IMG/VR virus record: IMGVR_UViG_3300037882_001749
Coordinates: 1 to 44,784 of that record
Strand: one strand, 5' to 3'
From: a virus
Length of the DNA stretch: 44,784 nucleotides
Shown in pieces: positions 1-44,784 of the stretch. The notes under the pieces are model-generated. The model saw nothing but the letters and a program-made list of their open reading frames with translations. It was not told the DNA's origin and did no database searches. A program made the translations under genes and the position numbers. Within the stretch, counting starts at the first letter, position 1; every line of letters begins with the position of its first letter.

Positions 1-1
1 C

Positions 2-1390: not shown

Positions 1391-1398
1391 AACCAAAC

Positions 1399-4135: not shown

Positions 4136-4162
4136 GGAGTATTTTGTTAGAAAGCTAAAGCA

Positions 4163-4176: not shown

Positions 4177-4243
4177 CCCCTTGGGCGTTCTAGCTCAACC
4201 CGCGTATCGGTGGTCAATGGCCCGAATACCCAATGGGAAATGC

Positions 4244-4672: not shown

Positions 4673-4685
4673 TTCCGTTCATAAT

Positions 4686-5311: not shown

Positions 5312-5336
5312 AAAATTCCTTTGGTCTTCGAAAAAG

Positions 5337-7615: not shown

Positions 7616-10600
7616 TTATTCCTCTTCTTCCACTCCGGTTATCTTGCCATCGTTATCGCGGTTTATTTTCAGCTTACGCTTGGTCTGCGATCCACTCATG
7701 GAAATCTCAAGTTTAATAGGTTCGGGCGCCTTGGTTTGAGACTGAGTGGCACTGGCTTGCTGTGAAGGTTGCGTAGGCGCTTGCGATGCCTGTTGGTTCT
7801 TCTGGGCCAGAATTGCCAAGACCTGCTCATAGACCGGCTTGCTCATCGCATCGCCGGGAAGGCTTTGAAGGAATTTAACCTGTTGTTCCCGTGTCTTTCC
7901 AAAAAGCTGATCTGCAATAAACTCAGCCCTATTTGCGTTTTCAACTTTAAGGTTCAGCACGGGTTGCATAGCTACCACCGGAGTACGGTTATCTTGGCGT
8001 TTAATGCCATCAACCACGTCTTTTATGCCTAGCTCGGATAGGCCGTAAGCTTGTGACCGCTTGGTCACAATGGCCAATTTGTCCTGCGGTTTTACCGCAG
8101 TGTTGCGCATGGTAGCCATGTTTTCAGCACGGAGCTTCTTGCGCTCAATCTCCTCAAACGCTTGTTGCTGCAAAGATTTGTCCAAAGCGTCCGTTGACTC
8201 AGTAGAAATCTGAGGTGCATCGTTTGGCACGAACTTGATGAATGACGCCAGAATCGGCATGGTAGCAGCACCACGCTGTTTCTTTTTCTGATCCTCGGTC
8301 TTTTGCATTTCGCCGACAGCGTCCGCTGCCTGTAAAGCCGCAGCGGCAAGGCCACCACCGTAACCACGCACAAGGTACAGGATCGACTCAGGGCTTACGT
8401 CGTAGCCTGTCATCTCTTTCAAAGTCTTGGCTGCTTGAACAGCCCCTACACCGGAAGCCGTGGTAAGGGTCCGGTCCTTGACTTTCTCAATGTCTAAGCC
8501 GGTGGTTGAAAACCGAGGGTAAACCGTGCCACCGGTAAACGAGACGTTGCGGCCTACATCCATTGCCGGATCGGCCAACGTAGGTGTCAATGCTTGCGTG
8601 ATGTCACCTGCCCCAAGCGGGTTCATGGAATCGGCAAATACGTCAGCCATGCGCTTTGCGGCGGCATCGGGGCTGTAGCTCATTCCTGAGCCAATGTCGC
8701 TGATGGTATCCATCACTCCTTTGATAGGGCGTACAGACTGAGCAACCGGAATGTTGTAGTAGTACACTCCGCCATCTTTACCTTCTTCTTTTCCGATGGC
8801 TACGGGAATCCCAATTCTTCGATAAAAGTCTGTTTGTTTTTTAAGCTTCCAATCCGGGTCCATGCTGGAGTTCCAAGCGTCCAAAGCCAAAGCAGCTCCA
8901 GCAAAACCTCCGGAAATCTCAATGATGGTTTGTGGGCTACGAATCACGTTTTTAGCCGCAATGCCTGTGCTTTGGATGGCAGGTCCAATAAACCCATACA
9001 AAGTGCCGAGAGATTTGATCGTGGAGCTTTTAAGGTTAAAGTCTATAGACGCTTTTCGAGCCAGCATTGCCGCCTCTTTACGAGAGGCTCCCAACTTCTT
9101 TGCCCGGTCGTAAACACGCAGGTAATTTGAATCGTTGGTAACGTCGTTCAAATAATCAAAAACGCCGACAAAGGCACGTCCTGCATCTCCAAGCCTAGAC
9201 CTATCCATAGAAACGCTTTTAAGCGCCTTCTCGGAGGCTTTGCGGGTGGCATTGGCGTAGCCGCCACTAAACGCTCCGTCTAACTCCGCCTCAGTGTACA
9301 TTTTGCCAAGCGGGGTATCTTCCCCTAGCTTTGCATCATGCACTGCCTTCATGTAGCGAAATGGGTTTTGAAGGATGCTTGTCTTGGCCGCTTCCCGCAG
9401 ATCATCTGATGCCGCAAGGTTAAAAAATACTTCCTGACGGTCACGGATTGGATTGTTCGCCAAAAAGAATGACGGCGAGAACCGAGTGTAGATTTGAGTA
9501 AGCAGGTTTGTTCCTGCGCCTACAGCCCGCATAATCGGGTCTTTCAACCCAGTACCCATGTTCCTAAGGCTGTTCGCAAGGAGCTGGTCATCGAACTCCA
9601 CCCAGTCAGTCTTGTTAACTCCGCTCTCGTTATATCGTACTGCAATCGCGTTTTCTGGCAATTCACCAGCCGTCGCACGTTTTACCGTAACTCCAGCGTT
9701 CGGGTACTTCTTATAAAAGTTACGAACGGTTTGGGCAACGACATTTCGCTCTCCACGAATAATGGCGTCTTTGAGATTGGTCAAAGAAGACGTAAGCGGA
9801 TCGGACACTTCCAACTCAGAGCCCTTTCCTGCTTTAAGACCAGAACTGCGTGAGCTAAAGCGAGGTGTTCCATAAACAGCACCTAATGAGTCTTCTGTTT
9901 CAGGGATTTCTCGATTCAGTGGAATGTGCTCAGGGAACTCCTTGCGCAACGCCGCTGCTCGGTCTGGCCCGACTAGGCCGGTATCAACACGGACTTTAAG
10001 CGCAAGGTCACTTATTTCCCTTACCTGCTTTCTCAGGTCTTCAAACACAGGCTCAATGCCACGATCCTTGATGTTTTGGATAATGTTGTCTGCTTCGTCA
10101 TCGCTCATGCCAGCCGCAGGACCACGATCAAAGTCAGCATGAACTCGGTTGTAGTCCTTGGCCGTCTTTGCGACCATGTAGTTCTTAAGCTGATTGATAT
10201 ACTGCTCTCGTGGTATGCCAGAAGCCTTTGCCAAGGTAGTCAGGGATACGTCGATGTTCTTTTGAATAGCTTGCCCTGCTTGCTCGGCCATAATCCTAAC
10301 CTTGGCATCAACAACACCCGGATACAAAGAAGCAGCAAGATAGGCATTTGCGTTTTCTTCAACCTCTCCAGCCGTACGCGCAACTTTACCAACGTCACGT
10401 TTAAGACGTGCCCAAGGATTGTTTCCAAGCGTTTCCCGGAACCGAACTAGAGGCTCTAAGTCCCTAGTTTTTAAAAACCATTCTGGAAGGCCCTCTGTTC
10501 CTTTTGCTGTTTCCTTGGCAAAGGCTGCTAAATTTCGTCCGGGTATGGCAAGGCGTGCTCCAACGGATGCGGCACCGCCAAACATAACTCCGTACTTGGC

Positions 10601-13105: not shown

Positions 13106-13108
13106 AGA

Positions 13109-14053
13109 TTACCGAAAGTTAATGCCTTCAAATACGTTTACAGTTGTTGGTGTCACCTGAGGCTGTGTTGTCTGCGTATTTGGAGTGCTTGGTGCAGGGT
13201 TTGTGGCGTTTTGAGTCCCAAGGAACTCGGCAAGCTGCTGCAAGTAATTAGCTCCTCCAGAACCACCTTTGGAAAGTGATTCCGCACGCTGATCTAGCAT
13301 AGCTGCTCCTTGCGGGTCAGTAGCACGTATTTCATTTGCTTGCCTACGAAGGTCTAAAATTGAGTCGCCGGGCCTACGTACAGCCGCACTACGCTTGGCA
13401 ATAACGCCGTCCAAAATAGCCGCAGTTTCCGTATCTCCAACATCCAAAGCTTCATCCCGTGATTGTATCAGCCCTTGCACAGAAGATGATGCCGCAGGCC
13501 GTTTTTGACGTTCTTTCTCCAAATCAATACGCCCTTGGTTTTGTACCCCTAGCTTTTCCAGCTCTTGAGCATACTGAATCTTTGAAAGTTCTGTCCTAGC
13601 CTTTATTTCAGTATCTGTAATGGCAGACTTAAACGCCATTGCCCTGCTTTGGTTTAGTTGATCTACAAACGGCTTACCTTCGTCAAGTTGAGACATCCAC
13701 GTGTACTTAGGCTGAATTCTAGCCAGCGCCTTTTCCTGCTCCTCAAACGTAGGAAGCTGCATAGCAGCCTGATACTCAGCATTAGCAATAGGCGCTTCTT
13801 GAGCCAATCGCTTTTTAAGCATTTCTTGCTGAGTAATAGTGGAAATAGTCGCCCGAGCGGATGCTAACGTTGCTTCCTGCTTTGCAAGAAATACAGGTTC
13901 TACAGCTCTCCGAATTTCTTCATCTCGCGCACGATCCTGCGTTTCCCACTGGATGCGCTGACGGCGCTGCATGAAACTTTGGCCAAAATCGGCACCACGA
14001 TAAAACTGCCCTGCTGGGTCAGTTTGTGCAGGCATGAATTGCGCTTCGGCCAT
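13109..14053 (-). CDS. Helical internal virion protein, 314 aa
   Basis: A Gln/Ala/Glu-rich, largely alpha-helical protein with probable coiled coil at about residues 25-200 (FMQRRQRIQWETQDRARDEE; ELSKIQYAQELEKLGVQNQG) and a disordered Thr/Pro/Gln C-terminal tail. It sits between the giant ejection protein and the Gly-rich membrane protein, mirroring the gp14-gp15-gp16 order of podoviral internal cores. I therefore infer an ejectosome component. No enzymatic motif is visible. Confidence 0.7.
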   Translation of the reverse strand: MAEAQFMPAQTDPAGQFYRGADFGQSFMQRRQRIQWETQDRARDEEIRRAVEPVFLAKQEATLASARATISTITQQEMLKKRLAQEAPIANAEYQAAMQLPTFEEQEKALARIQPKYTWMSQLDEGKPFVDQLNQSRAMAFKSAITDTEIKARTELSKIQYAQELEKLGVQNQGRIDLEKERQKRPAASSSVQGLIQSRDEALDVGDTETAAILDGVIAKRSAAVRRPGDSILDLRRQANEIRATDPQGAAMLDQRAESLSKGGSGGANYLQQLAEFLGTQNATNPAPSTPNTQTTQPQVTPTTVNVFEGINFR

Positions 14054-14058
14054 AGGTT

Positions 14059-14889
14059 TTAAGAGTAAAGTCCACTGCCACCGCCGTATCCAGAGCTAAA
14101 CGGCATTGACGCCCCAGTTCCACCATACCCTCCGCTTACAGCAGACGGGGCATTACTGAATCCTGAATATGGTGCTGTACCTGAGTATCCTCCGCCACCG
14201 CCAGCAGCAGCTCCAGCCCCTGCGCCATACATTCCTCCAAATACGCCAGCACCTGCTGCTAATCCCTCCCACGGAGCAGCAGCTTTCTGATTCGCAGCAG
14301 CTTGCTGTGCATTCATGTATGCTTGCTGTGCAGACCTGTTATCCGATGCCGCTTGAATGGCGTTCTGCGGAGTAACATACATGGACAATGGACTAAGCGG
14401 GTTTACTTTCGCTAATCCTGCAAGCGTCCCTAAAATTGACTGACTGCTAGCAATTTGCTGCTGTCCGTATTGCAGACTGTTAACTCCAAAGTCTCGCAAT
14501 AGTGAAAAATCACCGGCTTGTCCACGTACTCCCGTGTTAATACCTCGCTCGGCTGCTATGCGCGAAAGATTATCCTCAAACTCTTGAGGTAAGGCATAGG
14601 GATTTGCACTAGCTTGCTGGGCTTGCCTACTTAAGTTCTGGGCTATTTGGTCATACCCCGGAATGGCTCGATTCAACAGACTAAGGTTTTGATCCTGCGT
14701 AAAAGTATTTGCACGCCGCAACAATGCCTCAATCTCAGGGGTATTTTGGTTGTTTGCTCGAATGGCTTCAGAAGCTGCACCCCCAACGTCAACAGCAGCA
14801 GCTTGCCCCGGAGCCTTTGCTCCTTTGCTTTTTGCCATGTAGGTGCTTCCTCCTACAACAACCGCTGCTCCAACGGCAATCCAACTCAT
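14059..14889 (-). CDS. Gly/Ala-rich internal virion protein, gp14-like
   Basis: A 276-residue protein beginning with a hydrophobic segment (WIAVGAAVVVGGSTYM) that could insert in a membrane. A helical Gln/Asn-rich centre follows (AAERGINTGVRGQAGDFSLL; QQAYMNAQQAAANQ). The C-terminal ~75 residues are extremely Gly/Ala/Ser/Tyr-rich (GAGAAAGGGGGYSG). Short N-terminally hydrophobic proteins at this place in podoviral gene order form the outer-membrane part of the ejection channel. Assignment rests on position and composition, not on sequence identity I can verify. The start overlaps the end of the next upstream gene by four bases (ATGA). Confidence 0.68.
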   Translation of the reverse strand: MSWIAVGAAVVVGGSTYMAKSKGAKAPGQAAAVDVGGAASEAIRANNQNTPEIEALLRRANTFTQDQNLSLLNRAIPGYDQIAQNLSRQAQQASANPYALPQEFEDNLSRIAAERGINTGVRGQAGDFSLLRDFGVNSLQYGQQQIASSQSILGTLAGLAKVNPLSPLSMYVTPQNAIQAASDNRSAQQAYMNAQQAAANQKAAAPWEGLAAGAGVFGGMYGAGAGAAAGGGGGYSGTAPYSGFSNAPSAVSGGYGGTGASMPFSSGYGGGSGLYS

Positions 14890-36515: not shown

Positions 36516-36800
36516 CTATTTGTTCGGCAAAACCACATGCTTTCCGTGATTGTCAGCAGGACCGATGAGCTTGGCTTTTTCCGCGATTTCAAGGAGCGCG
36601 CATGCATGGTTGTATCCGATGCGAAGCTTTAGCTGGATTCGCGAAACGCCGACGGCAGTTTCTCCATTTATCACATCCAAGAAGGCGGGCGCACGCTCTA
36701 CCGCATCGCGTTCGCGTGGGCTTAAGTCGATCCCGCCGAACCAGTCGCTAGTGACAACAGCGGGGATTGTCCCGCGGGCTTGAGTTGATGGTGTATTCAT
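36516..36800 (-). CDS. Stand-alone FtsK gamma-type winged-helix protein on a cassette
   Basis: A 94-residue product. The C-terminal half (AVGVSRIQLKLRIGYNHACA then LLEIAEKAKLIGPADNHGKH) matches the FtsK gamma domain pattern (S-x-x-Q-R-x-L-R-I-G-Y-N-R-A-x-x-L-x-x-x-E-x-x-G-x-I-G-P), which reads KOPS sequences in chromosome translocases. No ATPase is attached. The N-terminal ~25 residues (to SDWFGGI) are encoded by attC-like site D. It may compete with host FtsK or act in phage gene control; unknown. Confidence 0.75.
   Translation of the reverse strand: MNTPSTQARGTIPAVVTSDWFGGIDLSPRERDAVERAPAFLDVINGETAVGVSRIQLKLRIGYNHACALLEIAEKAKLIGPADNHGKHVVLPNK
36522..36528 (-). repeat. Half attC-like box at the end of the middle array
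   Basis: GCCGAAC on the minus strand (plus GTTCGGC) directly at the end of the FtsK-gamma gene. The second arm is missing before the HNH gene, so this looks like the border between cassette array and phage core. Confidence 0.4.
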
Positions 36801-36863
36801 AGTTTTTGAGCTGATTGAGATTATTTGTTTTCGCCCCGCTGCGTCACACCTTGGGTGTTCGGC
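36735..36863 (-). repeat. attC-like site D (between 104-aa and FtsK-gamma genes)
   Basis: Minus strand: GCCGAAC...GACGCAGCGGGG pairs with CCCCGCTGTTGTC...CGACTGGTTCGGC. 129 bp. The start codon of the FtsK-gamma gene (36800) lies in its loop. Confidence 0.65.
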
Positions 36864-37135
36864 AAAGAAGGCCACGGTTGCCAGCGGCGCAGGTCTTCCG
36901 CGCTTTCGTATTCCGTCTCGAACCACGCATCGACCGCGACGCCGTGCCCGTCGCTTTCGCGCTGCACAGACACAGCTGCCCATGCGTTGGATCGTTCACA
37001 CCACGTCGCCATGACCGGCCACGGCCACCCAAAGTCTGCGAGAATCAGCGGGCCTTTCGGAGCCGTATGCGCGGGCTGCCAGATTGCCGAATCAGACGGC
37101 ACAGACAACGCTCGGGACTCGGGGGTATTGTTCAT
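36821..37135 (-). CDS. WQP-type small cassette protein (DUF551-like), 104 aa
   Basis: After the leader MNNTPESRALSVPSDSA come IWQPAHTAPKGPLILADFGW and DAWFETEYESAEDLRRWQPW, the pattern of a common phage family whose members start W-x-P-I/A-x-T-A-P-K and end with W-x-P-L/W-P (DUF551-like). The leader is encoded by an attC-like site and occurs again, nearly identical, at 42267 on another protein. The C-terminal tail (LPNTQGVTQRGENK) is also site-encoded. Function of the family is unknown. Confidence 0.7.
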   Translation of the reverse strand: MNNTPESRALSVPSDSAIWQPAHTAPKGPLILADFGWPWPVMATWCERSNAWAAVSVQRESDGHGVAVDAWFETEYESAEDLRRWQPWPSLPNTQGVTQRGENK

Positions 37136-37199
37136 GATTTATCTCCGCTCTTATCGTGTTGGTTGTTCGCCGAGCGCGTCTGACCTTGGTCGTTCGGGC
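37086..37199 (-). repeat. attC-like site C (stop/start overlap inside)
   Basis: Minus strand: GCCCGAACGACCAAGG...CAGACGCGCTCGG pairs with CGAGCGTTGTCTGTG...TCTGATTCGGC; R' is degenerate (ATTCGGC). 114 bp. The stop of the upstream gene and the start of the downstream gene (ATGA, 37132-37135) are both in its loop. Nearly the same sequence occurs at 42205-42316. Confidence 0.65.
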
Positions 37200-37533
37200 A
37201 AAGAAGATATACTTGGTGATCGCACCATTCTCCGTGCCCATGATAGGTGTATTCCGTTTCAATGCGTAGCACGCCGCGCTTCACGAGAGCGTCGAGAGTC
37301 ACCATGCGGATTTGCGGCGTGTCCCACGGAAGATCATCGTTCATCCATCGTCCGCAGGAGTTGAAGCCTTTGCGCCATTCTGCTTCGATTTTTCCGTAGT
37401 GCTGGATTAGTTCCACGGCTGTTCGCATTGCGCACGTTAAGCCCGAACAATCGGTTACAGACAACGACCCGCGCTGTCCGGCTTGCGCCGTTTCAGGGTG
37501 GGCCAGAGTCACGGTTTCAGGATGGAAGGTCAT
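37132..37533 (-). CDS. Cassette protein, 133 aa, winged-helix-like
   Basis: The first ~35 residues (MTFHPETVTLAHPETAQAGQ...) are encoded within attC-like site B. The body may begin at an ATG just past the site (MRTAVELIQHYGKIEAEWRK), the classical cassette layout. It contains PQIRMVTLDALVKRGVLRIE, which looks like a winged-helix recognition region, followed by a His/Cys-rich strand pair (YTYHGHGEWCDHQVYLLC). The tail (PNDQGQTRSANNQ...) is site-encoded. Function unknown. Confidence 0.65.
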   Translation of the reverse strand: MTFHPETVTLAHPETAQAGQRGSLSVTDCSGLTCAMRTAVELIQHYGKIEAEWRKGFNSCGRWMNDDLPWDTPQIRMVTLDALVKRGVLRIETEYTYHGHGEWCDHQVYLLCPNDQGQTRSANNQHDKSGDKS

Positions 37534-37572
37534 AGTGGTTCGGCGGGTCGCGTCTGACCCGAGGCGTTAGCC
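37441..37572 (-). repeat. attC-like site B
   Basis: Minus strand: GGCTAACGCCTCGG...GCGACCCGC pairs with GCGGGTCGTTGTCTG...GTTCGGGC. 132 bp. The end of the 79-aa gene and the annotated start of the 133-aa gene are inside. Confidence 0.65.
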
Positions 37573-37769
37573 AAGGCACGCATTTCGCGCTCGTAGTCAG
37601 GGTTCAGCCAGTCGCGCCGACCCAGCGGAAGGTCGGTCACTATTTGCCGGAGTAGCCAGCGCATACGGTTGTTTTCGCGTTCTAGTTCGCGGATTTTAGC
37701 CGCAAGAATATACTGGGGAGTGGCGGAGCCTGAGTATTCGCCGAAGGCAAGAGCATGTTCGTAGGTCAT
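37530..37769 (-). CDS. Coiled-coil cassette protein, 79 aa
   Basis: MTYEHALAFGEYSGSATPQY followed by a Leu/Arg/Glu helix (KIRELERENNRMRWLLRQIV), then PLGRRDWLNPDYEREMRAL. The ATG lies nine bases after the GTTAGCC box of site A-minus (37778-37784), the classical place for a cassette gene. Its last residues (ASGQTRPAEPL) are site-encoded. Function unknown. Confidence 0.65.
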   Translation of the reverse strand: MTYEHALAFGEYSGSATPQYILAAKIRELERENNRMRWLLRQIVTDLPLGRRDWLNPDYEREMRALANASGQTRPAEPL

Positions 37770-37777
37770 AAAAAGAG

Positions 37778-37895
37778 GGCTAACCAGACGCCAGAGCCAA
37801 CACGGCCAGCGGTCACTTGATTTTCGGTCGTCATACAGGAAGAGGGAGTCATAGGTTATTCGCGCTGGCCGTGCGGCTCAGCTAGAGTGTTAGGC
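37778..37895 (-). repeat. attC-like site (best inverted repeat, 118 bp)
   Basis: Minus strand: GCCTAACACTCTAGC...GAGCCGCACGGCCAGCG pairs with CGCTGGCCGTGTTGGCTC...CTGGTTAGCC. GCCTAAC is a perfect R'' consensus; the gene stop TAA is inside it, as in typical integron cassettes. The 13-bp inner arms ACGGCCAGCG/CGCTGGCCGT are perfect. Confidence 0.75.
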
Positions 37896-38048
37896 ACGGC
37901 CACTCGGAATCATCGAATTAACTAGCCCGACTACCCACGCGGAATACAGCGCGACACCGAGGCCGTTGTGTCCGGCTTTCCAAAGTTGGTATGCGGCTAG
38001 ACCCATAATTCCTCCGACGATTCCGTTGATAATAGATTGTCTGTTCAT
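37890..38048 (-). CDS. Small Gly-rich membrane protein, 52 aa
   Basis: MNRQSIINGIVGGIMGLAAY... and GLGVALYSAWVVGLVNSMIP give two hydrophobic segments. The start at 38048 is preferred over an upstream one because the longer frame adds an unrelated His-rich stretch. The stop is in the GCCTAAC box of the attC-like site. Probably the first cassette gene of the leftward array; function unknown. Confidence 0.6.
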   Translation of the reverse strand: MNRQSIINGIVGGIMGLAAYQLWKAGHNGLGVALYSAWVVGLVNSMIPSGRA

Positions 38049-38131
38049 TGTATGTATTTTTCTATCGTGTACATGTACTTCATTCGAGTGCCTGAATGCT
38101 ACACTATCTGGCACACTTTGTCTGTAGGGGA

Positions 38132-38524
38132 TTACCCTAAATTTGTTCCACGTAGAACAATTTCATCTACCACGACCTCCGTGCGCTCTTCTTCTTTGGT
38201 TTTAACTTTGATTTGGCTAACCTCAATTTTCGTTTGTCCCGGCGCATCTGTAGGTACGCATCCAGCATATCTGCAAAGGTCAACGTGGTACTTTTCGCAG
38301 AGGTTGTCTTCATCGAGCAACCGCCTTCGATAGCTCGTAACGCGCACAAGAAATCGTCTGCTATTTCCTTCTTTAGTTTTGCCCTTTGCCAATGCCCCAT
38401 CCCCAGAACCGCATTCCAACTTGGGACGGCGTGTTTTACCGTGAGCCTCAAAACAGGCAAGTAAGTCGGCGTTGAGTCGTTTAACTGATTCGGATGCATT
38501 CGGTAGTTTTTTAAGGATGCTCAT
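38132..38524 (-). CDS. RusA-like phage protein, 130 aa
   Basis: The stretch VRVTSYRRRLLDEDNLCEKY then VDLCRYAGCVPTDAPGQTKI and EVSQIKVKTKEEERTEVVVD follows a pattern I know from phage RusA-type Holliday junction resolvases and relatives (L-D-x-D-N-L...D-x-L-R-Y-A-G...D-x). A role in resolving replication intermediates is plausible. Start at 38524 overlaps the upstream stop (ATGA). Its end carries the second parS-like 16-mer. Confidence 0.68.
   Translation of the reverse strand: MSILKKLPNASESVKRLNADLLACFEAHGKTRRPKLECGSGDGALAKGKTKEGNSRRFLVRVTSYRRRLLDEDNLCEKYHVDLCRYAGCVPTDAPGQTKIEVSQIKVKTKEEERTEVVVDEIVLRGTNLG
38144..38159. promoter_or_regulatory. parS-like 16-mer, copy 2 (inverse of copy 1)
   Basis: TGTTCCACGTAGAACA, the reverse complement of 33970-33985, located in the last codons of the RusA-like gene. 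See the first copy for caveats. Confidence 0.3.
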
Positions 38525-38817
38525 TGCGCGCCTTTTGGCAGTGATTTTAGGGCTTCTGACCAAGCTGGGTATATCTCGGTATAGGTTTCAACAAAACTAG
38601 CCGTAAAAGTCTTTCCTGACCGTCCTTTGATTGTCACTAGGCAATCAGGGATTGAGCCTATACCATAAGGCTCCTTCGCTTTTATCTCCACCACCTGCCC
38701 GACTATCGCCTTTTCCCTATCCGCGATTAGGTGGGTAACTGTACCCATAGGCTGCATAACAGCTACCTTGAAAAGCAGGTCTTTGAATGGGCTGGGCAAT
38801 AAATCAGTCTGGCTCAT
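38521..38817 (-). CDS. Hypothetical protein, 98 aa
   Basis: MSQTDLLPSPFKDLLFKVAV then MGTVTHLIADREKAIVGQVV and SIPDCLVTIKGRSGKTFTAS: predicted small beta-barrel, possibly an SH3-like or OB-like fold. No family recognised. It overlaps both neighbours by four bases, in a leftward three-gene operon with the SWIM-like and RusA-like genes. Confidence 0.68.
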   Translation of the reverse strand: MSQTDLLPSPFKDLLFKVAVMQPMGTVTHLIADREKAIVGQVVEIKAKEPYGIGSIPDCLVTIKGRSGKTFTASFVETYTEIYPAWSEALKSLPKGAQ

Positions 38818-39089
38818 ATTCCTTTATCCTTTGGGTTTCGTTTGGCTAGTTCTGTGTAAAGGTGAAATTCGTTGTAAAGTCTGGCTGCTTTGACGTGAGC
38901 ACAGGTAGTAGCTGGGTTACTCCATTTCCCCCCTTCCTTGATAGCTTTGGCAACTCCTGTCTGACTCCATTTGCAGCTACATTCCCCAAATCCTTTTCTT
39001 CCTAACAAATCAACTTTGTGTGGAGCATCGGTTGACCTGCTTTCTACCTCAAAGGTAAATGGCTCTCCTTGTAATGGGGTAACTTTCAT
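38814..39089 (-). CDS. SWIM-type zinc finger-like protein, 91 aa
   Basis: GFGECSCKWSQTGVAK and TTCAHVKAARLYNEFHLYTE give a C-x-C ... C-x-H arrangement as in SWIM zinc fingers, here with ~22 residues between the pairs. The N-terminus is beta-type. SWIM fingers bind DNA or proteins; here probably DNA-related because the next genes include a RusA-like protein. First gene of the leftward three-gene operon. Confidence 0.68.
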   Translation of the reverse strand: MKVTPLQGEPFTFEVESRSTDAPHKVDLLGRKGFGECSCKWSQTGVAKAIKEGGKWSNPATTCAHVKAARLYNEFHLYTELAKRNPKDKGI

Positions 39090-39144
39090 TTTGTTTTGGT
39101 ATATTTCATTTTAAGAATGAGTTATAATTAAGGTTTTGGGTTTT

Positions 39145-39158
39145 GTTTGCTTCCCCGA
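39145..39158 (+). repeat. GTTTGCTTCCCCG direct repeat with hairpin, copy 1
   Basis: GTTTGCTTCCCCG followed by a hairpin (CCCC...GGGG) and GCATG. Repeated 101 bp downstream. Confidence 0.45.
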
Positions 39159-39245
39159 CCGCAGCAGGGGACTGCATGGGCGTTTCCCACGATATATTCC
39201 TAACCCTTTGGAAAGCGGTACGGCGGACGCTTTTTCAGTGTTTCT

Positions 39246-39259
39246 GTTTGCTTCCCCGG
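39246..39259 (+). repeat. GTTTGCTTCCCCG direct repeat with hairpin, copy 2
   Basis: Same 13-mer followed by GGACC...GGTCC hairpin and GCATG. Confidence 0.45.
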
Positions 39260-39414
39260 ACCATTGAGGGTCCGCATGACCTGCGCTATTCAGTCCCAAC
39301 AGCTTCACGCAGGATTTTTGAAACACCTATCCTCTGACGAGTATCACGCCTGACGTTGTGGGCGCACGGCTTCCTTTGTTTCCGGGCATTGGTTCGTTCG
39401 ATTATCGCGGCCAA

Positions 39415-39454
39415 TAAAAAACCCGGCTACAGGGTCTAGCTGTAAACCGGGTTT
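39415..39454 (-). terminator. Rho-independent terminator
   Basis: Minus strand: AAACCCGG, TACAG loop CTGTA, CCGGGTT then TTTTATT. It lies downstream of the leftward 78-aa gene (39592-39828), which it would terminate. Confidence 0.85.
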
Positions 39455-39591
39455 CAAATTGAGCGCAGGCCGCTCGGGAAATTGATTCTCGCTTCACCGT
39501 CTAGACCTCGGGAGCGGGGATAGAAATGCTCGGCATTTAGATTCCTTCAAGTCTTTTTTTCAAAAAACTTCATTTCCACTCTCAAAATAAG

Positions 39592-39828
39592 TTATGGGCA
39601 GTTCGGGAAAGCCGTCTTTTGAAACGGGCCTTGGTTGTTTGGCCCTAGCACCTGACCTGCCCCAGCCGGCGTAGCCGTCTCTTGAAATAGCCCGCGCTGG
39701 CGATTACAGCCACGATCTACCGCCTTGAATGGTGAGGACGCAGGCAGGGGCTTAACAAAGCCAGAAAACGATTGCTGATGTGTCTGTGCAGGCCGGAAAA
39801 GCTTAGAGGTGTAGGCTGGTTTGTTCAT
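39592..39828 (-). CDS. Hypothetical protein with internal repeat, 78 aa
   Basis: MNKPAYTSKLFRPAQTHQQS then PLPASSPFKAVDRG and two similar units, RGLFQETATPAG and QGPFQKTAFPNC, encoded by similar DNA. The gene faces the HTH gene at 39977 across a ~150-bp divergent region, and a terminator follows it. No family recognised. An upstream in-frame extension to 39936 is possible but less likely. Confidence 0.5.
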   Translation of the reverse strand: MNKPAYTSKLFRPAQTHQQSFSGFVKPLPASSPFKAVDRGCNRQRGLFQETATPAGAGQVLGPNNQGPFQKTAFPNCP

Positions 39829-39976
39829 GCAACAACTGTAGGAGCGTTTTTCACAGGTAGGCAAGCCGCAAGAAACCATTGTCAACCCATGGCGATTTGT
39901 AGGGGATTCCCTTATTTTAGCATCATTGTGCAGCATTTAGTTGACGCATTACGATGCAAGTGTCTTCGTCCTGTGC
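39829..39976. promoter_or_regulatory. Divergent control region
   Basis: Between a leftward gene and the rightward HTH gene. It contains TTGTAGGGGATTCCCTTA (39896 on), a partial dyad similar to TGTAGGGGATTACCCTAA at 38123 on. Possible operator; -35/-10 not assigned with confidence. Confidence 0.35.
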
Positions 39977-40234
39977 ATGACCGAAGAAACTATCACGAAA
40001 ATAAGCGATGCAGAACAGGCGCGGATCGAACTGGCGATGATCCATAAAAAGCTAGATTTCGCAATCCGCCTTTTAGCAGATGACCGCAGACCCAACATGA
40101 CCAAAGCAGCCTTTGCAAAAAAGGCCGGGGTTCACCGCGCCACAGTCAATCGGTGGATTCAGAAGGGCCTTCTTCGCATGGTAAACGGGCGCATACCGCA
40201 TGCAGAACTCAACAAAGTCACCACACACAAGTAA
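39977..40234 (+). CDS. Helix-turn-helix protein, 85 aa
   Basis: MTEETITKISDAEQARIELA... a helical N-terminus, then the MerR/excisionase-like unit MTKAAFAKKAGVHRATVNRW followed by IQKGLLRMVNGRIPHAELNK. The W-I-x-x-G-L...G-R-I-P pattern is that of DNA-binding excisionase-like proteins. It begins the rightward operon. The ATG at 39977 is preferred to an upstream TTG. May control the divergent region. Confidence 0.75.
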   Translation: MTEETITKISDAEQARIELAMIHKKLDFAIRLLADDRRPNMTKAAFAKKAGVHRATVNRWIQKGLLRMVNGRIPHAELNKVTTHK

Positions 40235-40235
40235 C

Positions 40236-40505
40236 ATGAAATCCAACAAAGTACCGGAAAACTTAGCTGAGGCACGGCCTTCATGGTGGACAGCAAATCA
40301 TGAGGCCGCTCTGTCGGCGTTAACTAACGGTTGGCAGTCTGTAGCCAATTTGAAGGAAGAACACTGCGTTGGCAGTTTGGCTTTCTGCGATCTTTGGCTT
40401 GCTGGTTACTGCGAAAAGCAGACTGAGGAGTTTACCCATAAAGACCTTCGCCCCGGGGCCCACATCTTTTACCGCCTACCTAGAACGCTGGCATCAATCG
40501 TTTGA
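40236..40505 (+). CDS. Hypothetical protein, 89 aa
   Basis: MKSNKVPENLAEARPSWWTA then ALSALTNGWQSVANLKEEHC and GYCEKQTEEFTHKDLRPGAH. Possibly winged helix (short strand pair at the end: IFYRLPRTL). One base after the preceding stop. Function unknown. Confidence 0.68.
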   Translation: MKSNKVPENLAEARPSWWTANHEAALSALTNGWQSVANLKEEHCVGSLAFCDLWLAGYCEKQTEEFTHKDLRPGAHIFYRLPRTLASIV

Positions 40506-40519
40506 TTTCCATTTTACCA

Positions 40520-40765
40520 ATGAATGCAAAACTAGACTTTGATTTCATTTATCACCCCGTTGCAGACGGGCAGGACTCATATCTATGCGACTGTTGCCGG
40601 GAGCAGTTTTCCAGTGACCTTTCCCTTTTTGAAATACGGCACGAACGCTTTTCTTCCGTTTGTGAAAACTGCAAAGACATGATCGAGATTGAAGCCAAAG
40701 AAGAGGAAGACGAACGCCATGAACGACTCCGCCGATGCGTGGCCATTAATTCCACCAAAGAATAA
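40520..40765 (+). CDS. Small Cys-rich acidic protein, 81 aa
   Basis: CDCC (about residue 22) and CENCKDM (about residue 51) could bind one zinc, followed by an acidic helix (EIEAKEEEDERHERLRRC). ATG at 40520 preferred over a TTG 18 bases upstream. Function unknown. Confidence 0.65.
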   Translation: MNAKLDFDFIYHPVADGQDSYLCDCCREQFSSDLSLFEIRHERFSSVCENCKDMIEIEAKEEEDERHERLRRCVAINSTKE

Positions 40766-40931
40766 GGACTCACTAAGAACAATAACCGGCGACGATTGGA
40801 AACGATCAATCAAACAGTCCAGAAGCCGGATAAACCAAGTATCTCAGCAAATAAAACAAGCAGCTCAAATTTATGGCAAACAAACAAATTCTAACATTAG
40901 GACAAGTAGTCCAGTTGCCTCCGGGCACTGA
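40719..40931 (+). CDS. Overlapping small protein, 70 aa
   Basis: MNDSADAWPLIPPKNKDSLR then DDWKRSIKQSRSRINQVSQQ: basic helical. It overlaps the preceding gene by 47 bp and the SSB-like gene by 59 bp. It fills the otherwise empty 40766-40872 gap, which supports it, but the long overlaps leave doubt. Confidence 0.5.
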   Translation: MNDSADAWPLIPPKNKDSLRTITGDDWKRSIKQSRSRINQVSQQIKQAAQIYGKQTNSNIRTSSPVASGH

Positions 40932-41553
40932 CGATAACCCAACATGGGTAGATGACTTTAAGGCTATCGTGACAGTCGGTCAATCTAAGCAAGGTAAAAC
41001 AGGGAAGACTTACTGGCCAGTTGGACTTACCGACACAGAGTCGGGGGCTACTCTTACGATTAACATGTATGAACGTCCTCTGGATTCATGGAACGGAGCC
41101 GTATGCCGTTTTAGTGGTGGGATGCGTATGTGTTCCTACAACGGACGCCCTGACCTAAAGCTAGGGAAAAAAACACTCATAGCTCCTATGGTTCAATCAG
41201 AACCAAGTGCTTTCCCGACAGCTCCAAAATCCATAGCTCCAAGCTACCAACCAACAAAGCAGACATACCAAGAAATGTCACTATCACCTGCGCCTAGCTA
41301 CAAGCCACAAGGGCAAACGGTAGGCATGGCAATTAACCAAGCATGTGAGTTTTTGAGGCATCAGAATCAGCCATTTTCACAAAAAGCCGTATACCTAATG
41401 GCTAAAGAAATTATTGCCGTTTCCGCAGAGCTTGAGGCTGCCATTTACGAAAAAACTAAGCCCGCTGCAAAGGTAAGTTCCAACCCTGTACCCGCACGGG
41501 TAGAAGCGCCATCAGTTAGTCAGGAAAACCCAGACGAAGACGTTCCGTTTTAA
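40873..41553 (+). CDS. ssb-like: Single-stranded DNA-binding protein-like
   Basis: A 226-residue protein. The N-terminal ~110 residues are predicted OB-fold (FKAIVTVGQSKQGKTGKTYW; TLTINMYERPLDSWNGAVCR). A Pro/Gln linker follows, then a helical part (GMAINQACEFLRHQNQPFSQ). The end ENPDEDVPF matches the acidic C-terminal tip (D-D-x-P-F) with which SSBs recruit partner proteins. The protein would protect single-stranded DNA at the phage fork, working with the DnaB-like helicase. It differs from E. coli SSB in having an added helical segment. Confidence 0.75.
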   Translation: MANKQILTLGQVVQLPPGTDDNPTWVDDFKAIVTVGQSKQGKTGKTYWPVGLTDTESGATLTINMYERPLDSWNGAVCRFSGGMRMCSYNGRPDLKLGKKTLIAPMVQSEPSAFPTAPKSIAPSYQPTKQTYQEMSLSPAPSYKPQGQTVGMAINQACEFLRHQNQPFSQKAVYLMAKEIIAVSAELEAAIYEKTKPAAKVSSNPVPARVEAPSVSQENPDEDVPF

Positions 41554-41946
41554 ATGAACAAGTATACTCCAAAAACAGACGTTAACTTTGCGCGAATACG
41601 CGAATGCTCTTTGCTGTTTCCGGCCGATAAAAAGGCCGGGCTCACTGTGCCGCAGATAGCTGAAAAGCACCGCGTATCCATACCAACAGTTAGGAAGTAT
41701 CTTAAAAACCCGTTACCTTTTCAAACTGCTAAAGAAGTGTTTCTTCCAAATGATGTGGCCCGATGCGACGGAATCGGAAGCGTAGAAAACGGGGTTAAAT
41801 ACTGGAGAGATGGCTGCGACACGTGCCTTAGGCGCACCGCCCAGCGAAAAGAATCGGTATGGATGATGTCACCGCCACCGATAATAGCATTTGAGTGTGA
41901 ATATATTATTTTACCTACCGATAGCAGGGAGCCACGTGGAATTTAA
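41554..41946 (+). CDS. HTH protein with Cys motif, 130 aa
   Basis: KAGLTVPQIAEKHRVSIPTV then RKYLKNP is a resolvase-like helix-turn-helix. RCDGIG ... GCDTCLRR (two Cys pairs) may bind zinc, and MMSPPPIIAFECEYI ends the fold. It begins directly after the SSB-like stop. Its last codons overlap the first attC-like site of the right array, marking the border of phage core and cassettes. Confidence 0.7.
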   Translation: MNKYTPKTDVNFARIRECSLLFPADKKAGLTVPQIAEKHRVSIPTVRKYLKNPLPFQTAKEVFLPNDVARCDGIGSVENGVKYWRDGCDTCLRRTAQRKESVWMMSPPPIIAFECEYIILPTDSREPRGI

Positions 41947-41999
41947 CCCATGAAAAACACCCCTGAGATTGCCCGCGTTGGGTCTGTCGCTGGTTCGGC
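41912..41999 (+). repeat. attC-like site 1 of the right array
   Basis: Weak left arm (CCTACCGATAGCAGG) pairs partly with CGTTGGGTCTGTCGCTGGTTCGGC; R' box GTTCGGC at 41993-41999. Confidence 0.5.
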
Positions 42000-42270
42000 A
42001 GCTCAACGGCCTGACTTCAATCAGCGGCTTTTGACGCTGGGGAACTGGCTTATCTCTCGCGCCAACGCGAAACACAACGAGCTTACGACGCGCTCGATGC
42101 TGCGTAGAAAGGTCGATGACATACTTTACCTGCCCGGTCGAAGCGGCACGCCTGACGTGCAACAGGAGACCGGCTCCGTAGGCACGGGCGGGGACCAATC
42201 TTTTCCGAACGACCACGGTCAGACGCGCTCGGGAGAAAACCTGAGTGCAGAGAGCGGAGAAAAATCATGA
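41950..42270 (+). CDS. Cassette protein, 106 aa
   Basis: The leader MKNTPEIARVGSVAGSA is site-encoded; the body reads FNQRLLTLGNWLISRANAKH then DDILYLPGRSGTPDVQQETG; the tail SFPNDHGQTRSGENLSAESG is encoded by the next site. It could carry a small DNA-associated helix. The stop overlaps the next start (ATGA). No family recognised. Confidence 0.6.
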   Translation: MKNTPEIARVGSVAGSAAQRPDFNQRLLTLGNWLISRANAKHNELTTRSMLRRKVDDILYLPGRSGTPDVQQETGSVGTGGDQSFPNDHGQTRSGENLSAESGEKS

Positions 42271-42316
42271 ACAATACCCCCGAGTCCCGAGCGTTGTCTG
42301 TGCCGTCTGGTTCGGC
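42205..42316 (+). repeat. attC-like site 2
   Basis: CCGAACGACC...CAGACGCGCTCGGG pairs with CCCGAGCGTTGTCTGTG...GTTCGGC. 112 bp. Nearly identical to the minus-strand site at 37086-37199, stop/start overlap included. Confidence 0.7.
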
Positions 42317-42515
42317 GGTGACGGTCCCATGCCCTGAGTGCTACGGAGGACACTTCCGCCCGTGCCAAATCTGCGGTGATTCTGGCTGGATCGAAGTAGT
42401 TCCGGGGCAAGTCCATGCCTGCGACTGCAAGCGCAAGTTTACTCACCTAAATCGCAATAACCACCTGCCGCTTCTGCCGAACGTCGAAGCTCAGCCACGA
42501 GCTGAGAATCAATAA
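42267..42515 (+). CDS. Cys-rich (zinc finger) cassette protein, 82 aa
   Basis: After the leader MNNTPESRALSVPSGSA comes a DnaJ-type Cys cluster: CPECYGGHFRPCQICGDSGW then CDCKRK. Four to six Cys residues could bind one or two zinc ions. The same leader precedes the WQP protein at 36821-37135, showing that the leader belongs to the site. The tail (NVEAQPRAENQ) is encoded by the next site. Confidence 0.68.
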   Translation: MNNTPESRALSVPSGSAVTVPCPECYGGHFRPCQICGDSGWIEVVPGQVHACDCKRKFTHLNRNNHLPLLPNVEAQPRAENQ

Positions 42516-42596
42516 TATGGATACCCACGACACGATCAAAACCTCGACAAAATCGGAGCCAAGTCAGGCTCGTTGCGCTGTAGCGGCTGGTTCGGC
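42476..42596 (+). repeat. attC-like site 3
   Basis: GCCGAACGTCGAAGCTCAG...CACGAGC pairs with GGCTCGTTGCGCTGTAGC...GTTCGGC. 121 bp. Confidence 0.68.
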
Positions 42597-42765
42597 GGCT
42601 CCTCGCGGAATCGAAGAGCATATCGACTGGAAGACTCAGCACGACAAACGCGAAGACCTCTTTCAATCCGATGAAAGCGGCGGGCTTCACTTCCCGTGCA
42701 ACGCCTGCCAGCACGCCACAAAACCGGCCTCATTCTGCCGCGCCTGCAAGCACTACGCGCTATAG
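42517..42765 (+). CDS. Cys-rich cassette protein, 82 aa
   Basis: Leader MDTHDTIKTSTKSEPSQARC is largely site-encoded; the body has HIDWKTQHDKREDLFQSDES and two Cys pairs (FPCNACQHATKPASFCRACK), probably one zinc site. The TAG stop adjoins the next GCCGAAC box. Function unknown. Confidence 0.62.
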   Translation: MDTHDTIKTSTKSEPSQARCAVAAGSAAPRGIEEHIDWKTQHDKREDLFQSDESGGLHFPCNACQHATKPASFCRACKHYAL

Positions 42766-42873
42766 CCGAACAATAAGCTGAGGAACGCGCCCAATGTGTA
42801 ACGAAAACAAACACCCCCTCGCGAAGAAGAAAGCGGCCAGCGTGCGCGTTCCTCCTCAAGCGCCTGGTTCGGC
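42765..42873 (+). repeat. attC-like site 4
   Basis: GCCGAACAATAAGCTGAGGA...ACGCGC pairs with GCGCGTTCCTCCTCAAGC...GTTCGGC. 109 bp. Confidence 0.7.
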
Positions 42874-43075
42874 TCCGTTTTACTGGCCACGCTCAGACCC
42901 TGAGGCCCTCGCGAAATTCGATCCTGACTCGAAAATCTGCACGATGAATTGCGGATCATCGACACACGACCCGCGCTCAAAAAAGGAATGCAAATTCCAG
43001 TGCACCGACTGCATCACCGTTCAGCCGAACAACAAGGTCAGAAACGGCGAGGACGGACCTTCGCCCGTTCCCTGA
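42794..43075 (+). CDS. Cys-rich cassette protein, 93 aa
   Basis: Leader region KHPLAKKKAASVRVPPQAPG is site-encoded; the body contains FDPDSKICTMNCGSSTHDPR and SKKECKFQCTDCITV, five Cys residues suggesting a metal site. Ends in the next site (QPNNKVRNGEDG). Function unknown. Confidence 0.6.
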   Translation: MCNENKHPLAKKKAASVRVPPQAPGSAPFYWPRSDPEALAKFDPDSKICTMNCGSSTHDPRSKKECKFQCTDCITVQPNNKVRNGEDGPSPVP

Positions 43076-43108
43076 CGTAACGCCGTTTTCTGTAACGACT
43101 GGTTAGCC
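43024..43108 (+). repeat. attC-like site 5
   Basis: GCCGAACAACAAGGTCAGAA...CGGCG pairs with CGCCGTTTTCTGTAACG...GTTAGCC. 85 bp. Confidence 0.72.
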
Positions 43109-43119
43109 TCCGAAAAACT

Positions 43120-43404
43120 ATGCAAGCACTCGCACCAACCAAAGACAACATGAGGCTCCGAATCTCGGAGCTTGAAGCGGACAATGCCAAGATGCGGAAG
43201 CAACTGCTTCGCATGGCTGACTGGCTCGCCAAGGTCCGCAAGTCCGCAATCGCGAACGAGGCAAACACTCGTGGTCGATTCGAGTCACTGGCCGACGCGC
43301 ACAAAGCTGACGCCGCCAATGCTGAGGTGATGGAACGCCACTGCCGAGAAGCCGCTACGGCTAACGCCGTGGTCAGCCAACCGCGAGGACAGACGCCCGA
43401 ATAA
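43120..43404 (+). CDS. Coiled-coil cassette protein, 94 aa
   Basis: MQALAPTKDNMRLRISELEA then DNAKMRKQLLRMADWLAKVR: a continuous helical coiled coil with heptads. The ATG lies 11 bases past the GTTAGCC box, the classical cassette layout. The tail (VVSQPRGQTPE) is encoded in the next site. Function unknown. Confidence 0.68.
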   Translation: MQALAPTKDNMRLRISELEADNAKMRKQLLRMADWLAKVRKSAIANEANTRGRFESLADAHKADAANAEVMERHCREAATANAVVSQPRGQTPE

Positions 43405-43465
43405 GGACGGTCCTCGCGCCAACCCCGGAGCTTATCGCGGTTGGCCTGTAGCACCGTGGTTAGCC
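43359..43465 (+). repeat. attC-like site 6
   Basis: GGCTAACGCCGTGGTCAG...CCAACCGCG pairs with CGCGGTTGGCCTGTAGC...GTGGTTAGCC. 107 bp, with an extra inner hairpin CGAGGAC...GTCCTCG. Confidence 0.75.
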
Positions 43466-43495: not shown

Positions 43496-43696
43496 ATGGA
43501 CTTCTCATCAATGCCCGGACCGGGCGCTTTTCTGTTGGTCGGCGGCGTGCTCTGTGCGCTCCTCGCAACCGCTCTGGCGGTCGTGCTCAAACTGTGCGGT
43601 GTGCTGCTTCTATCGTGGTGGTGGGTGCTCGCGCCCGTCCCTGCGCTCCTCGTGGTCGTCGTGATAATCGCGGGTCTGTGTGCTCTGCTTGGCTAA
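43496..43696 (+). CDS. Small hydrophobic membrane cassette protein, 66 aa
   Basis: Nearly entirely hydrophobic: GAFLLVGGVLCALLATALAV and LLLSWWWVLAPVPALLVVVV, two transmembrane segments. The start is 30 bases past the R' box; the stop TAA is in the GGCTAAC box of the next site. A holin-like or toxin-like function is possible, without evidence. Confidence 0.65.
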   Translation: MDFSSMPGPGAFLLVGGVLCALLATALAVVLKLCGVLLLSWWWVLAPVPALLVVVVIIAGLCALLG

Positions 43697-43782
43697 CGTA
43701 CCAGATGAGCCACGGCCTTAACTTTATGGACAAGCAAACAGAACAGACACCGCAGGCCGTTGGCTCTAGCGACGGGTTCGGC
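43691..43782 (+). repeat. attC-like site 7
   Basis: GGCTAACGTACCAGATGAGCC...ACGGCC pairs with GGCCGTTGGCTCTAGCGACG...GTTCGGC. 92 bp. Its complement reads PNPSLEPTA, a phrase often seen in translations across environmental attC-like repeats. Confidence 0.75.
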
Positions 43783-43974
43783 GGGCTGCGTCCGCTCGCA
43801 AAGGGCGACACCGTGCAGCGTGGGGACATCTTCATCGACGACGGACGGCGCTTCGAGATGGACACTCGCGGCTTTCTTCTCGGAGTGCGCTGCATCGGCC
43901 AAGTGATCCGCAAAGAAAACGGAGGATGGTTCCGTGCTCCGCCGAACGCCAAGACGAGCCGCGACTGCGCGTAG
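43705..43974 (+). CDS. Small beta-rich cassette protein, about 89 aa
   Basis: Site-encoded leader MSHGLNFMDKQTEQTPQAVG then LRPLAKGDTVQRGDIFIDDG and CIGQVIRKENGGWFRAPPNA. The body starts right at the site's R' box, so translation must begin in the site (43705 or 43726). Predicted small beta barrel; function unknown. Confidence 0.6.
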   Translation: MSHGLNFMDKQTEQTPQAVGSSDGFGGLRPLAKGDTVQRGDIFIDDGRRFEMDTRGFLLGVRCIGQVIRKENGGWFRAPPNAKTSRDCA

Positions 43975-44005
43975 CGCAGGCGTTGGCTCTGGCGACTGGT
44001 TGGAC
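43941..44005 (+). repeat. attC-like site 8
   Basis: GCCGAACGCCAAGACGAGCC...GCGACTGCGC pairs with GCGCAGGCGTTGGCTCTGG...GTTGGAC. 65 bp; GTTGGAC fits GTTRRRY exactly. Confidence 0.72.
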
Positions 44006-44030: not shown

Positions 44031-44784
44031 TGAAACACTCGAACATCGAATGGACTACGCACACCTTCAATCCGTGGATCGGATGCACGAAGGTCTCGCC
44101 CGGCTGCGCTCACTGCTACGCCGAGACGCTGAATAAACGCATGGGCTGGACACAGTGGGGCGACGCGGGCGAACGCTTCCGCACATCGCCGCACAACTGG
44201 AACGAGCCGCGCCGGTGGAATCGCGAGGCCGCGAAAACCGGACAGCGCGCCCGCGTCTTCTGCGCGAGCCTCGCGGATTGGCTGGACTACAAAGTGCCGA
44301 CCGCGTGGCGCGTAGAACTGCTCGACCTGATCGCGGAATGCTCCGAACTCGACTGGCTGCTCCTCACAAAGCGCCCGGAGTCGTGGAGTGCGCGGATGCA
44401 CGAGGCGGCGTCTGGCTCGACGCTCGCGCTCTCATGGCTCAACGGCATGGCCCCGCACAACGTCTGGCTCGGCGTGAGTGCCGAGGATCAAGAGCGGTGG
44501 GACGAGCGCATGAAACTCGCGCTCGAAATACCCGCCGAAGTCCGATTCGTGAGCGGCGAACCGCTGCTCGGCCCGATCACGATGGGTGCGATGCGCCCCG
44601 ACTGGCTAATCGTCGGCGGCGAAAGCGGCACTGGCTCGCGTGAAATGAAGCCGGAGTGGGTGCGGGCGCTCCGCGACGAGTGCGCGGCGACCGGCGTGCG
44701 CTTCTTCTTCAAGCAGTGGGGAGGCGTGAAGAAAAAGGAAGCCGGACGGATTCTCGACGGCGAGACCTTCGATCAACTCCCGGC
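44031..44784 (+). CDS. DUF5131 (phage Gp37/Gp68) radical-SAM-like protein, truncated by window end
   Basis: Starts MKHSNIEWTTHTFNPWIGCT, then KVSPGCAHCYAETLNKRMGW, the signature of the phage Gp37/Gp68 family; the Cys residues C-x6-C-x2-C resemble a radical-SAM cluster-binding loop. Later blocks VFCASLADWLDYKVP, LDWLLLTKRPESW, NVWLGVSAEDQERWDERM and DWLIVGGESGTGSREMKPEW and FFFKQWGG are all family-typical. The enzyme's substrate is not known. ATG lies 25 bases past the last attC-like box. The reading frame is open to the window edge. Confidence 0.85.

Follow-up and report, generated by a model that had tools for sequence, protein, structure and literature searches.

A phage array of attC sites with inverted cassette genes that probably start in their own site and take their tails from a neighbor's

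Introduction

Two genes in one phage genome open with the same 14 residues, MNNTPESRALSVPS, and then continue as unrelated proteins, which raises the question of where such a leader comes from and what the DNA between the genes lends to the proteins on either side. The window (the whole stretch of DNA analyzed, 44,784 nucleotides of IMG/VR record IMGVR_UViG_3300037882_001749) is a phage with about 13 attC sites in two clusters (Table 1). The reading we consider likely is that these are CALIN-like arrays in a phage without an integrase of its own, with attC sites of the Opitutaceae type and inverted genes that start in their own site and take their tail from the neighboring one.

A leader and a trailer encoded by one site

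The leader DNA common to the two genes covers 66 nt at 97% identity (37086-37151 and 42251-42316), and a second block of 37 nt aligns at 86% identity (37161-37197 and 42205-42241). Both blocks belong to one attC site with limits at CCGAAC (R'') and GTTCGGC or ATTCGGC (R'), and homology between the two copies ends with the last base of R'. A whole-contig search recovers the second copy with E = 1.3e-34, and the 3'-arm pattern, allowing up to three mismatches, has eight matches in the window versus none in 100 shuffles. The earlier note had proposed that an attC-like site encodes both the leader and the end of the upstream gene, and this holds; both leader-bearing ORFs also lie precisely at the positions it gave. 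The upstream ORFs end in the similar tails PNDQGQTRS...DKS and PNDHGQTRS...EKS, and the TGA that follows shares bases with the next ATG (ATGA). Since the true R' box of the plus-strand copy is GTTCGGC at 42310-42316, the residues through Gly-Ser-Ala after the leader are also site encoded.

The sites of the window carry R'' and R' boxes as inverted repeats ending in AAC and GTT. Their L'' and L' arms pair, and the resulting imperfect hairpin has its extra-helical bases on one side only, the 3' arm as read from the sequence. Fold z-scores reach -2.9 at 42204-42316, span -2.8 to -3.1 at 43359-43465 and are weak at 37086-37198 (-0.7 to -1.0). The cassettes stand in tandem with unrelated ORFs, as in an integron attC or CALIN array. 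The window departs from the canonical gene cassette, in which the gene follows attC polarity, attC lies at the 3' end and the ORF starts after R'. For at least nine sites the gene behind the site starts within it and reads through the 3' arm; for 4 of the roughly 13 the next gene starts after the site. A search of the window for the Phage_integrase family gave no match, and the window does not form a complete integron (intI plus attI). An Rfam scan for known RNA elements also gave no match.

Table 1. Features of the window, with positions in the 44,784-nt stretch; tails and trailers end at a stop codon
Feature	Position	Strand	Details
attC, contig left end	314-425	+	Next gene is the DNA methylase (to 1095); only usable starts inside site, ATG 328 or 361
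N6/N4 DNA methylase cassette gene	328-1095	+	Fused to attC leader ...SLCLAPGWASG; Pfam N6_N4_Mtase, E 3.4e-19
Cassette ORF, FtsK_gamma-like domain	36516-36803	-	Pfam PF09397, E 1.2e-7
attC	36735-36863	-	Next ORF from inside, 36803 (MNTPSTQARGTIPAVVTSDWFGG)
Cassette ORF	36821-37135	-	Shared leader plus unrelated protein; tail LPNTQGVTQRGENK in following site
attC, second copy	37086-37198	-	Trailer PNDQGQTRS..., ATG 37135, leader MNNTPESRALSVPS
Cassette ORF	37132-37533	-	Ends in attC 37086-37198, trailer PNDQGQTRSANNQHDKSGDKS
attC	37442-37572	-	ORF 37132-37533 from inside (MTFHPETV...GSLSVTDCSG); preceding ORF's tail ANASGQTRPAEPL
attC, R' GTTAGCC	37778-37895	-	Next ORF after site, 37769
First ORF of plus cluster	41950-42270	+	Leader MKNTPEIARVGSVAGSA over degenerate site (R' 41993-41999); ends in attC 42204-42316
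attC	42204-42316	+	R'' 42204-42210, R' 42310-42316 (gene orientation); ATG 42267 in loop; encodes upstream ORF's trailer PNDHGQTRSGENLSAESGEKS and following ORF's leader MNNTPESRALSVPSGSA
Cassette ORF	42267-42515	+	Site-encoded leader plus Cys-rich protein; tail PNVEAQPRAENQ in following site
attC	42476-42596	+	Next ORF from inside, 42517 (MDTHDTIK...AVAAGSA)
attC	42765-42873	+	Next ORF from inside, 42794 (MCNENK...PPQAPGSA)
attC, R' GTTAGCC	43024-43108	+	Next ORF after site, 43120
attC, R' GTTAGCC	43359-43465	+	Next ORF after site, 43496
attC	43691-43782	+	Next ORF from inside, 43729 (MDKQTEQTPQAVGSSDGFGG, other frame)
attC, short loop	43941-44005	+	Next gene after site, 44031; runs off contig end

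Inverted genes on probably mobile sites

Phages and the chromosomal arrays of Opitutaceae carry the same attC arms with opposite gene direction. In eight phage contigs, 38 cassettes are inverted relative to attC polarity, 1 is canonical and 12 are ambiguous, versus 84 canonical, 2 inverted and 9 ambiguous among bacterial cassettes with the same attC type; the counts rest on mechanical gene calls, and the ambiguous cases make up about a quarter of the phage cassettes. With genes running against attC polarity, attC sits at the 5' end of its own gene rather than the 3' end, so in the window most of the cassette proteins start within their own site, and the ends of many lie in the neighbor's. The array of the isolated phage TJE1 reads as canonical in gene orientation, and inversion is thus no rule for all phages. 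The seemingly frequent read-through ORFs in bacterial loci are, by gene direction, antisense noise; L005 and several further pattern-matched loci were chance matches inside ordinary genes, and a second 5'-arm search pattern was too narrow.

On the reading favored here, the phage, without its own integrase, carries attC sites of the Opitutaceae type and their cassettes, which the IntI of the host would serve. In most cassette genes the loop and 3' arm of the site belonging to the gene would contain the ribosome-binding region, the start codon and the first ~15-30 codons. The C terminus often crosses the true crossover box (R'', RYYYAAC, with the crossover before the last base) into the attC of the neighboring cassette, which provides a short tail, a stop codon and in some cases an ATGA overlap, where a restart may couple translation of the two genes. 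A cassette gained or lost beside a gene would then give a new C-terminal tail and leave the N-terminal leader untouched. Co-directional expression in phage operons may be the reason for the inversion.

Ordinary compaction, in which phage genes have come to overlap former attC sites that no longer move and the leader is passive read-through, is an unlikely account, though the strongest of the competing ones. It fits a window without an integrase, the overlapping ATGA starts that are common in phages and the degeneracy of some sites (41993, 37086), but the pattern recurs in phage contigs with little DNA similarity among themselves, and an array at one place distinguishes the related contigs G005 and G008. 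It also fits poorly with contig G001, which has phage tail, amidase and weak portal matches and encodes an integron integrase (TIGR02249, 282 bits). There, a duplicated cassette, 100% identical between copies, adjoins an attI-like site; together with the integrase this implies recent mobility.

Judged by its attC type, the window phage probably infects hosts of the Opitutaceae (Verrucomicrobiota) type and uses their IntI. No relatives by terminase were confirmed in IMG/VR; among GenBank phages, megablast found no near-identical phage and the attC consensus gave weak chance matches only. No attC array was detected near region L115 of an EW11 contig, the IntI of which is 48% identical to the phage one.

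The crossover box and exchangeable ends

The earlier note held that any gene arriving behind the site receives its start codon from it. On such a model the crossover would fall at the 3' R' box, and each site would lend start and leader to the cassette inserted there. Nearly the same attC does precede two unrelated genes of the window, and the frame bias at R' described below also fits. Near-identical attC sites before unrelated genes are, however, normal in chromosomal integrons, as in the Vibrio repeats. In addition, the attC sites of G001 have the same polarity with respect to intI as those of host integrons, and attC is inverted relative to the phage genes. The exact duplication in G001 runs 368 nt from the AAC of one R'' to the GCCGAAC of the next and comprises attC plus the downstream gene; limits at R'' indicate that the two moved as one piece. 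A bacterial pair, L022/L035, has the same duplication limits. The crossover is placed from these duplicates, the window cassettes having none, and the duplicate limits support putative recombination by IntI at GTT, between the G and the TT. A crossover at R'', the 5' box, would normally carry the leader along with its gene, and a newcomer would land in front of the site and receive a trailer and stop rather than a start. In that wording the claim of a lent start codon lacks support, and a crossover at R' seems improbable.

What the neighbor supplies is the C-terminal trailer and the stop codon, and identical genes bear different tails: the two G001 copies end with RKPNTQLRNAGANQSTPDSHE in one context and, by direct reading, with PNNV in the other. 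Among the genes that cross R'', 33/36 do so in one frame (CCG-AAC, Pro-Asn), 12 of them stopping in the site-encoded frame of the neighbor; the antisense bacterial control gives 13/11/4.

Some evidence for exchange near R' exists as well, and it speaks for the reading of the earlier note. The window shares a gene with L119, and L061 with L063, behind different attC sites, with identity beginning at R' or shortly after; the window gene behind attC 43941-44005 (start 44031) follows another attC in L119. A gene and its attC thus do not form a fixed unit: as the two pairs show, genes can gain a different attC, and hence a different leader, over evolutionary time.

Translation of the leader

The predicted RNA fold of the site is a hairpin with the AUG unpaired in the apical loop. 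ORFs of at least 45 codons that run from a loop ATG through R' occur at 29/76 phage sites versus 8/129 bacterial sites. Conservation of the frame across R', suggested earlier as a check, was seen in part: the 29 phage ORFs are biased toward one frame (21/5/3), but the frame is not invariant. In methyltransferase genes of the window, G007 and G009, the motifs follow closely on R' and no later start lies nearby, and homologues of the window methylase without attC start just before CGRVTLY. These catalytic-domain genes have no other usable start codon, which makes translation of the leader a necessity for the methyltransferases at least. In G003 one gene is present in two copies, one starting after its site and the other fused to the site leader. 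An untranslated leader, with non-ATG starts after R' and a frame open through the site by chance, is very improbable: frames of this length are often open in GC-rich DNA and some genes have GTG/TTG codons after R', but loop ATGs with a frame open through R' are only one-sixth as frequent at bacterial sites with this attC type, the methyltransferase catalytic motif comes before any later ATG, and the G003 copy that lost its own ATG lies in frame with the site leader.

Implications for integron biology

In integron theory, strand choice at attC exists to point cassette genes away from Pc. Consistently inverted cassettes in phages, one of which has its own integron integrase, break this rule and suggest that the cassette pools of phages and hosts are separable even though one enzyme exchanges both. 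The attC site becomes a coding element, such that a single recombination event would alter protein ends. The broader proposal, about as apt to hold as to fail, is that Opitutaceae phages keep a separate pool of inverted cassettes in which attC serves as the start and the neighbor's attC as tail and stop. If so, inverted cassettes caught by a host array would stay silent, and an integrase event beside a gene would rewrite the C terminus of a phage protein. This arrangement also gives a testable link to how cassettes arise, i.e., how a gene joins attC.

Comparison with known systems

Phage CALINs and integrons have been described with attC arrays, short ORFs and DNA methyltransferase cassettes, some with intI, and 5/6 tested phage attC sites were active with IntI1 (Qi et al. 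2023, PMC9892861). The window likewise is a phage genome with attC arrays, short ORFs and a DNA methylase cassette. The consulted part of that report calls the TJE1 and PH101 arrays oriented as in bacteria and holds no description of gene inversion, leaders within attC or shared tails (PMC9892861).

The chromosomal integrons of Opitutaceae (Verrucomicrobiota) have the same attC arms and the same attC polarity relative to intI; unlike in the window, their genes are canonical, with attC at the 3' end. In the reverse integrons of Spirochaetota, intI and the cassette genes are co-directional, as in the phage case. What is turned around differs: the integrase gene in Spirochaetota (PMC9668308), and the cassette genes in G001, where intI is in its usual position.

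A precedent for a recombination site that encodes a start codon is ORF-11 / ORF-17 of the class 1 attI1, where the site encodes a Shine-Dalgarno sequence and a start, the ORF extends over the point of crossover, and the cassette gene is translated either coupled to this ORF or as a fusion with it (reviewed in PMC8876359). That case involves attI, once per array, whereas the phage case involves attC, in many cassettes and mostly as the gene's own site. The window arrays are phage-borne attC clusters, a known kind of element, with a new arrangement of inverted genes and own-site starts.

The shared segment is a complete attC site

Two window genes on opposite strands, 5 kb apart, share their first 14 residues, and each is preceded by an ORF with a similar trailer, just as an earlier note had described. 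The DNA common to the two loci comprises 66 nt at 97% and 37 nt at 86% identity, bounded by CCGAAC on one side and GTTCGGC (ATTCGGC in the minus copy) on the other. When one copy was used as a query, the only other match in the contig was its counterpart (E = 1.3e-34). The segment is a complete integron attC site, and chance is therefore excluded. In gene direction, R'' (YCCGAAC) and L'' (GGTCAGACGCG) come first, followed by a loop of ~50 nt and then by L' (GCGTTGTCTGTG) and R' (GTTCGGC). Within the loop, GCGGAGA(A/T)AAATCATGA includes a GGAG resembling a Shine-Dalgarno sequence, the next gene's ATG and the preceding gene's TGA; in the RNA the attC arms are predicted to pair, with the AUG unpaired in the apical loop.

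The window has ~13 sites of this kind. The gene starts inside the attC at 9 or more of them and just after it at the remainder, where R' is GTTAGCC or GTTGGAC. The window is a virus record with genes that include a DnaB-like helicase and HNH, and no tyrosine recombinase was found in it. Because the array overruns the right end (44784), with a further site and a methylase cassette at the left end, the contig suggests a cut circle or permuted genome. One cassette protein carries an FtsK_gamma domain; it is unusual for this KOPS-binding module to stand alone as a small phage protein.

Features of the window and of related contigs
Feature	Sequence	Positions	Strand	Remark
Gene with shared leader	Window	36821-37135	minus	attC 37086-37198
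Gene with shared leader	Window	42267-42515	plus	attC 42204-42316
attC cluster	Window	36735-37895	minus	
attC cluster	Window	41950 to contig end	plus	
attC site	Window	314-425		Left end of contig; may continue plus cluster
FtsK_gamma protein	Window	36516-36803	minus	Pfam E 1.2e-7
Last cassette gene	Window	44031-44784		Radical-SAM-like Gp37/Gp68 type by eye
Same gene	Phage L119	4990-5238		Other attC in front
Integron integrase, ~12 inverted cassettes	Phage G001 (L050)	8300-9271; 9311-14460	minus (first interval)	TIGR02249 above cut-off
Second IntI-like gene	Opitutaceae bacterium EW11 (L112)	G012:C27:697629-698525		
Related phage contigs	L042; L070 (G005/G008)	1-4448; 242-6792		

Phage cassette genes run opposite to attC

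Scans of IMG/VR and GTDB genomes used an attC pattern that distinguishes polarity. The GTDB matches were overwhelmingly from Opitutaceae and other Verrucomicrobiota, whose arrays have the same attC arms as the phages with genes on the opposite strand. Bacterial genes were canonical in 84 cases, inverted in 2 and ambiguous in 9; the phage contigs, each inverted overall, gave 1, 38 and 12. The extra bases that define L'' lie, in phage-gene direction, in the 3' arm. Relative to the attC array, nearby host integrases (TIGR02249) and that of G001, a phage with its own integron integrase, occupy the same side. It is therefore the genes that turned, not the sites.

The G001 integrase shares 48% identity with a second IntI-like gene of EW11, near which no attC array was detected, and is more distant from the chromosomal IntI (37%). 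Two related phage contigs (86-91% identical) differ at one point: a cassette array in one, and just one HTH-like gene fused to an attC in the other.

The leader probably travels with its own gene and the tail comes from the neighbor

A duplicated cassette in G001 (368 nt, zero differences) runs from the AAC of one R'' box to just past the AAC of the next, so that the unit is an attC plus the gene behind it; one copy adjoins the integrase-proximal attI-like site. A bacterial pair (L022/L035) shares these limits, which correspond to the canonical G|TT position seen from the other strand. The earlier note held that the site supplies a start to any newcomer. Limits at R'' argue instead that the leader moves with its own gene's cassette; the site-encoded trailer stands, coming from the neighbor. 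The two G001 copies differ in their C termini (...RKPNTQLRNAGANQSTPDSHE and, by direct reading, ...RKPNNV), and the trailers PNDQGQTRS and PNDHGQTRS are two such neighbor-supplied tails. Phages show hardly any variation in reading frame at R'': the Pro-Asn frame is used by 33 crossing genes and other frames by 3 (13/11/4 at the same positions in an antisense bacterial control), and 12 genes end at the TAA of RYYTAAC.

Translation of the leader

The strongest evidence for translation of the leader comes from enzymes whose first motif begins directly past R'. The window methylase (N6_N4_Mtase, E 3.4e-19) reads ...SLCLAP followed by GWASGCGRVILYRADC, and its nearest later in-frame ATG is 93 codons on. 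Homologues free of attC (L079-L082, 78% identity) begin MDAEPLKPSFVSECGRVTLYQGDC, with their own start a few residues ahead of the homology, a start that the window methylase lacks; another (L083, 67%) is joined to a different attC in a different frame. Two further phage enzymes, named by motif, are a cytosine methylase (G009; APLALAS then GSPLRLLDLFCGVGG) and an N4/N6-type methylase (G007; SLALAS then GSASVFYADEYVTLY). Phage contig G003 has one gene in two copies at 99% identity: one starts after its site (MNTKTARELLG), whereas in the other this ATG is lost and the frame runs on from a site leader, MLKKNTRK...ALALGTCLGYTSKTARELLG. Among all phage sites found, the loop ATG stays open for at least 45 codons beyond R' in 29 of 76 (frames 21/5/3), against 8 of 129 bacterial sites of the same type (1/5/2).

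The attC–gene bond is not permanent. The gene at 44031 is ~97% identical in L119 downstream of R', with the preceding attC ~75% alike (a rough estimate from alignment); the duplicated G003 gene has differing attC sites on both sides; and in the window a single attC type precedes two unrelated genes. These cases point to some process that renews the join at or near R'. Top-strand recombination could do so, as could homologous recombination between repeated sites or an unknown cassette-making process. A start-supplying site may thus operate over evolutionary time, only so far as this join is renewed.

Comparison with known systems

In a full-text literature search covering few subscription journals, no report was found of an attC encoding a cassette gene's start, of tails supplied by a neighboring attC or of a population of cassettes whose genes run against their attC; this silence is not proof of absence. 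In G001, the portal-like, tail, integrase and cassette genes are all on one strand. One possible reason for the inversion is that it makes array, intI and phage genes codirectional in a phage operon; with canonical cassettes, array and intI transcription would oppose each other. A second possible reason is replication. Where the attC bottom strand lies on the lagging template affects its folding (PMC8946536), and inversion changes that relative to gene direction.

At attI1, the site-encoded start of ORF-11/17 couples or fuses to the cassette (PMC8876359). Phages are already known to carry attC clusters and integrons, and sites of TJE1, PH101 and P12002L have been shown to be active (PMC9892861). 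Since the isolated phage TJE1 appears canonical, inversion belongs to this attC family in phages and does not extend to phages at large.
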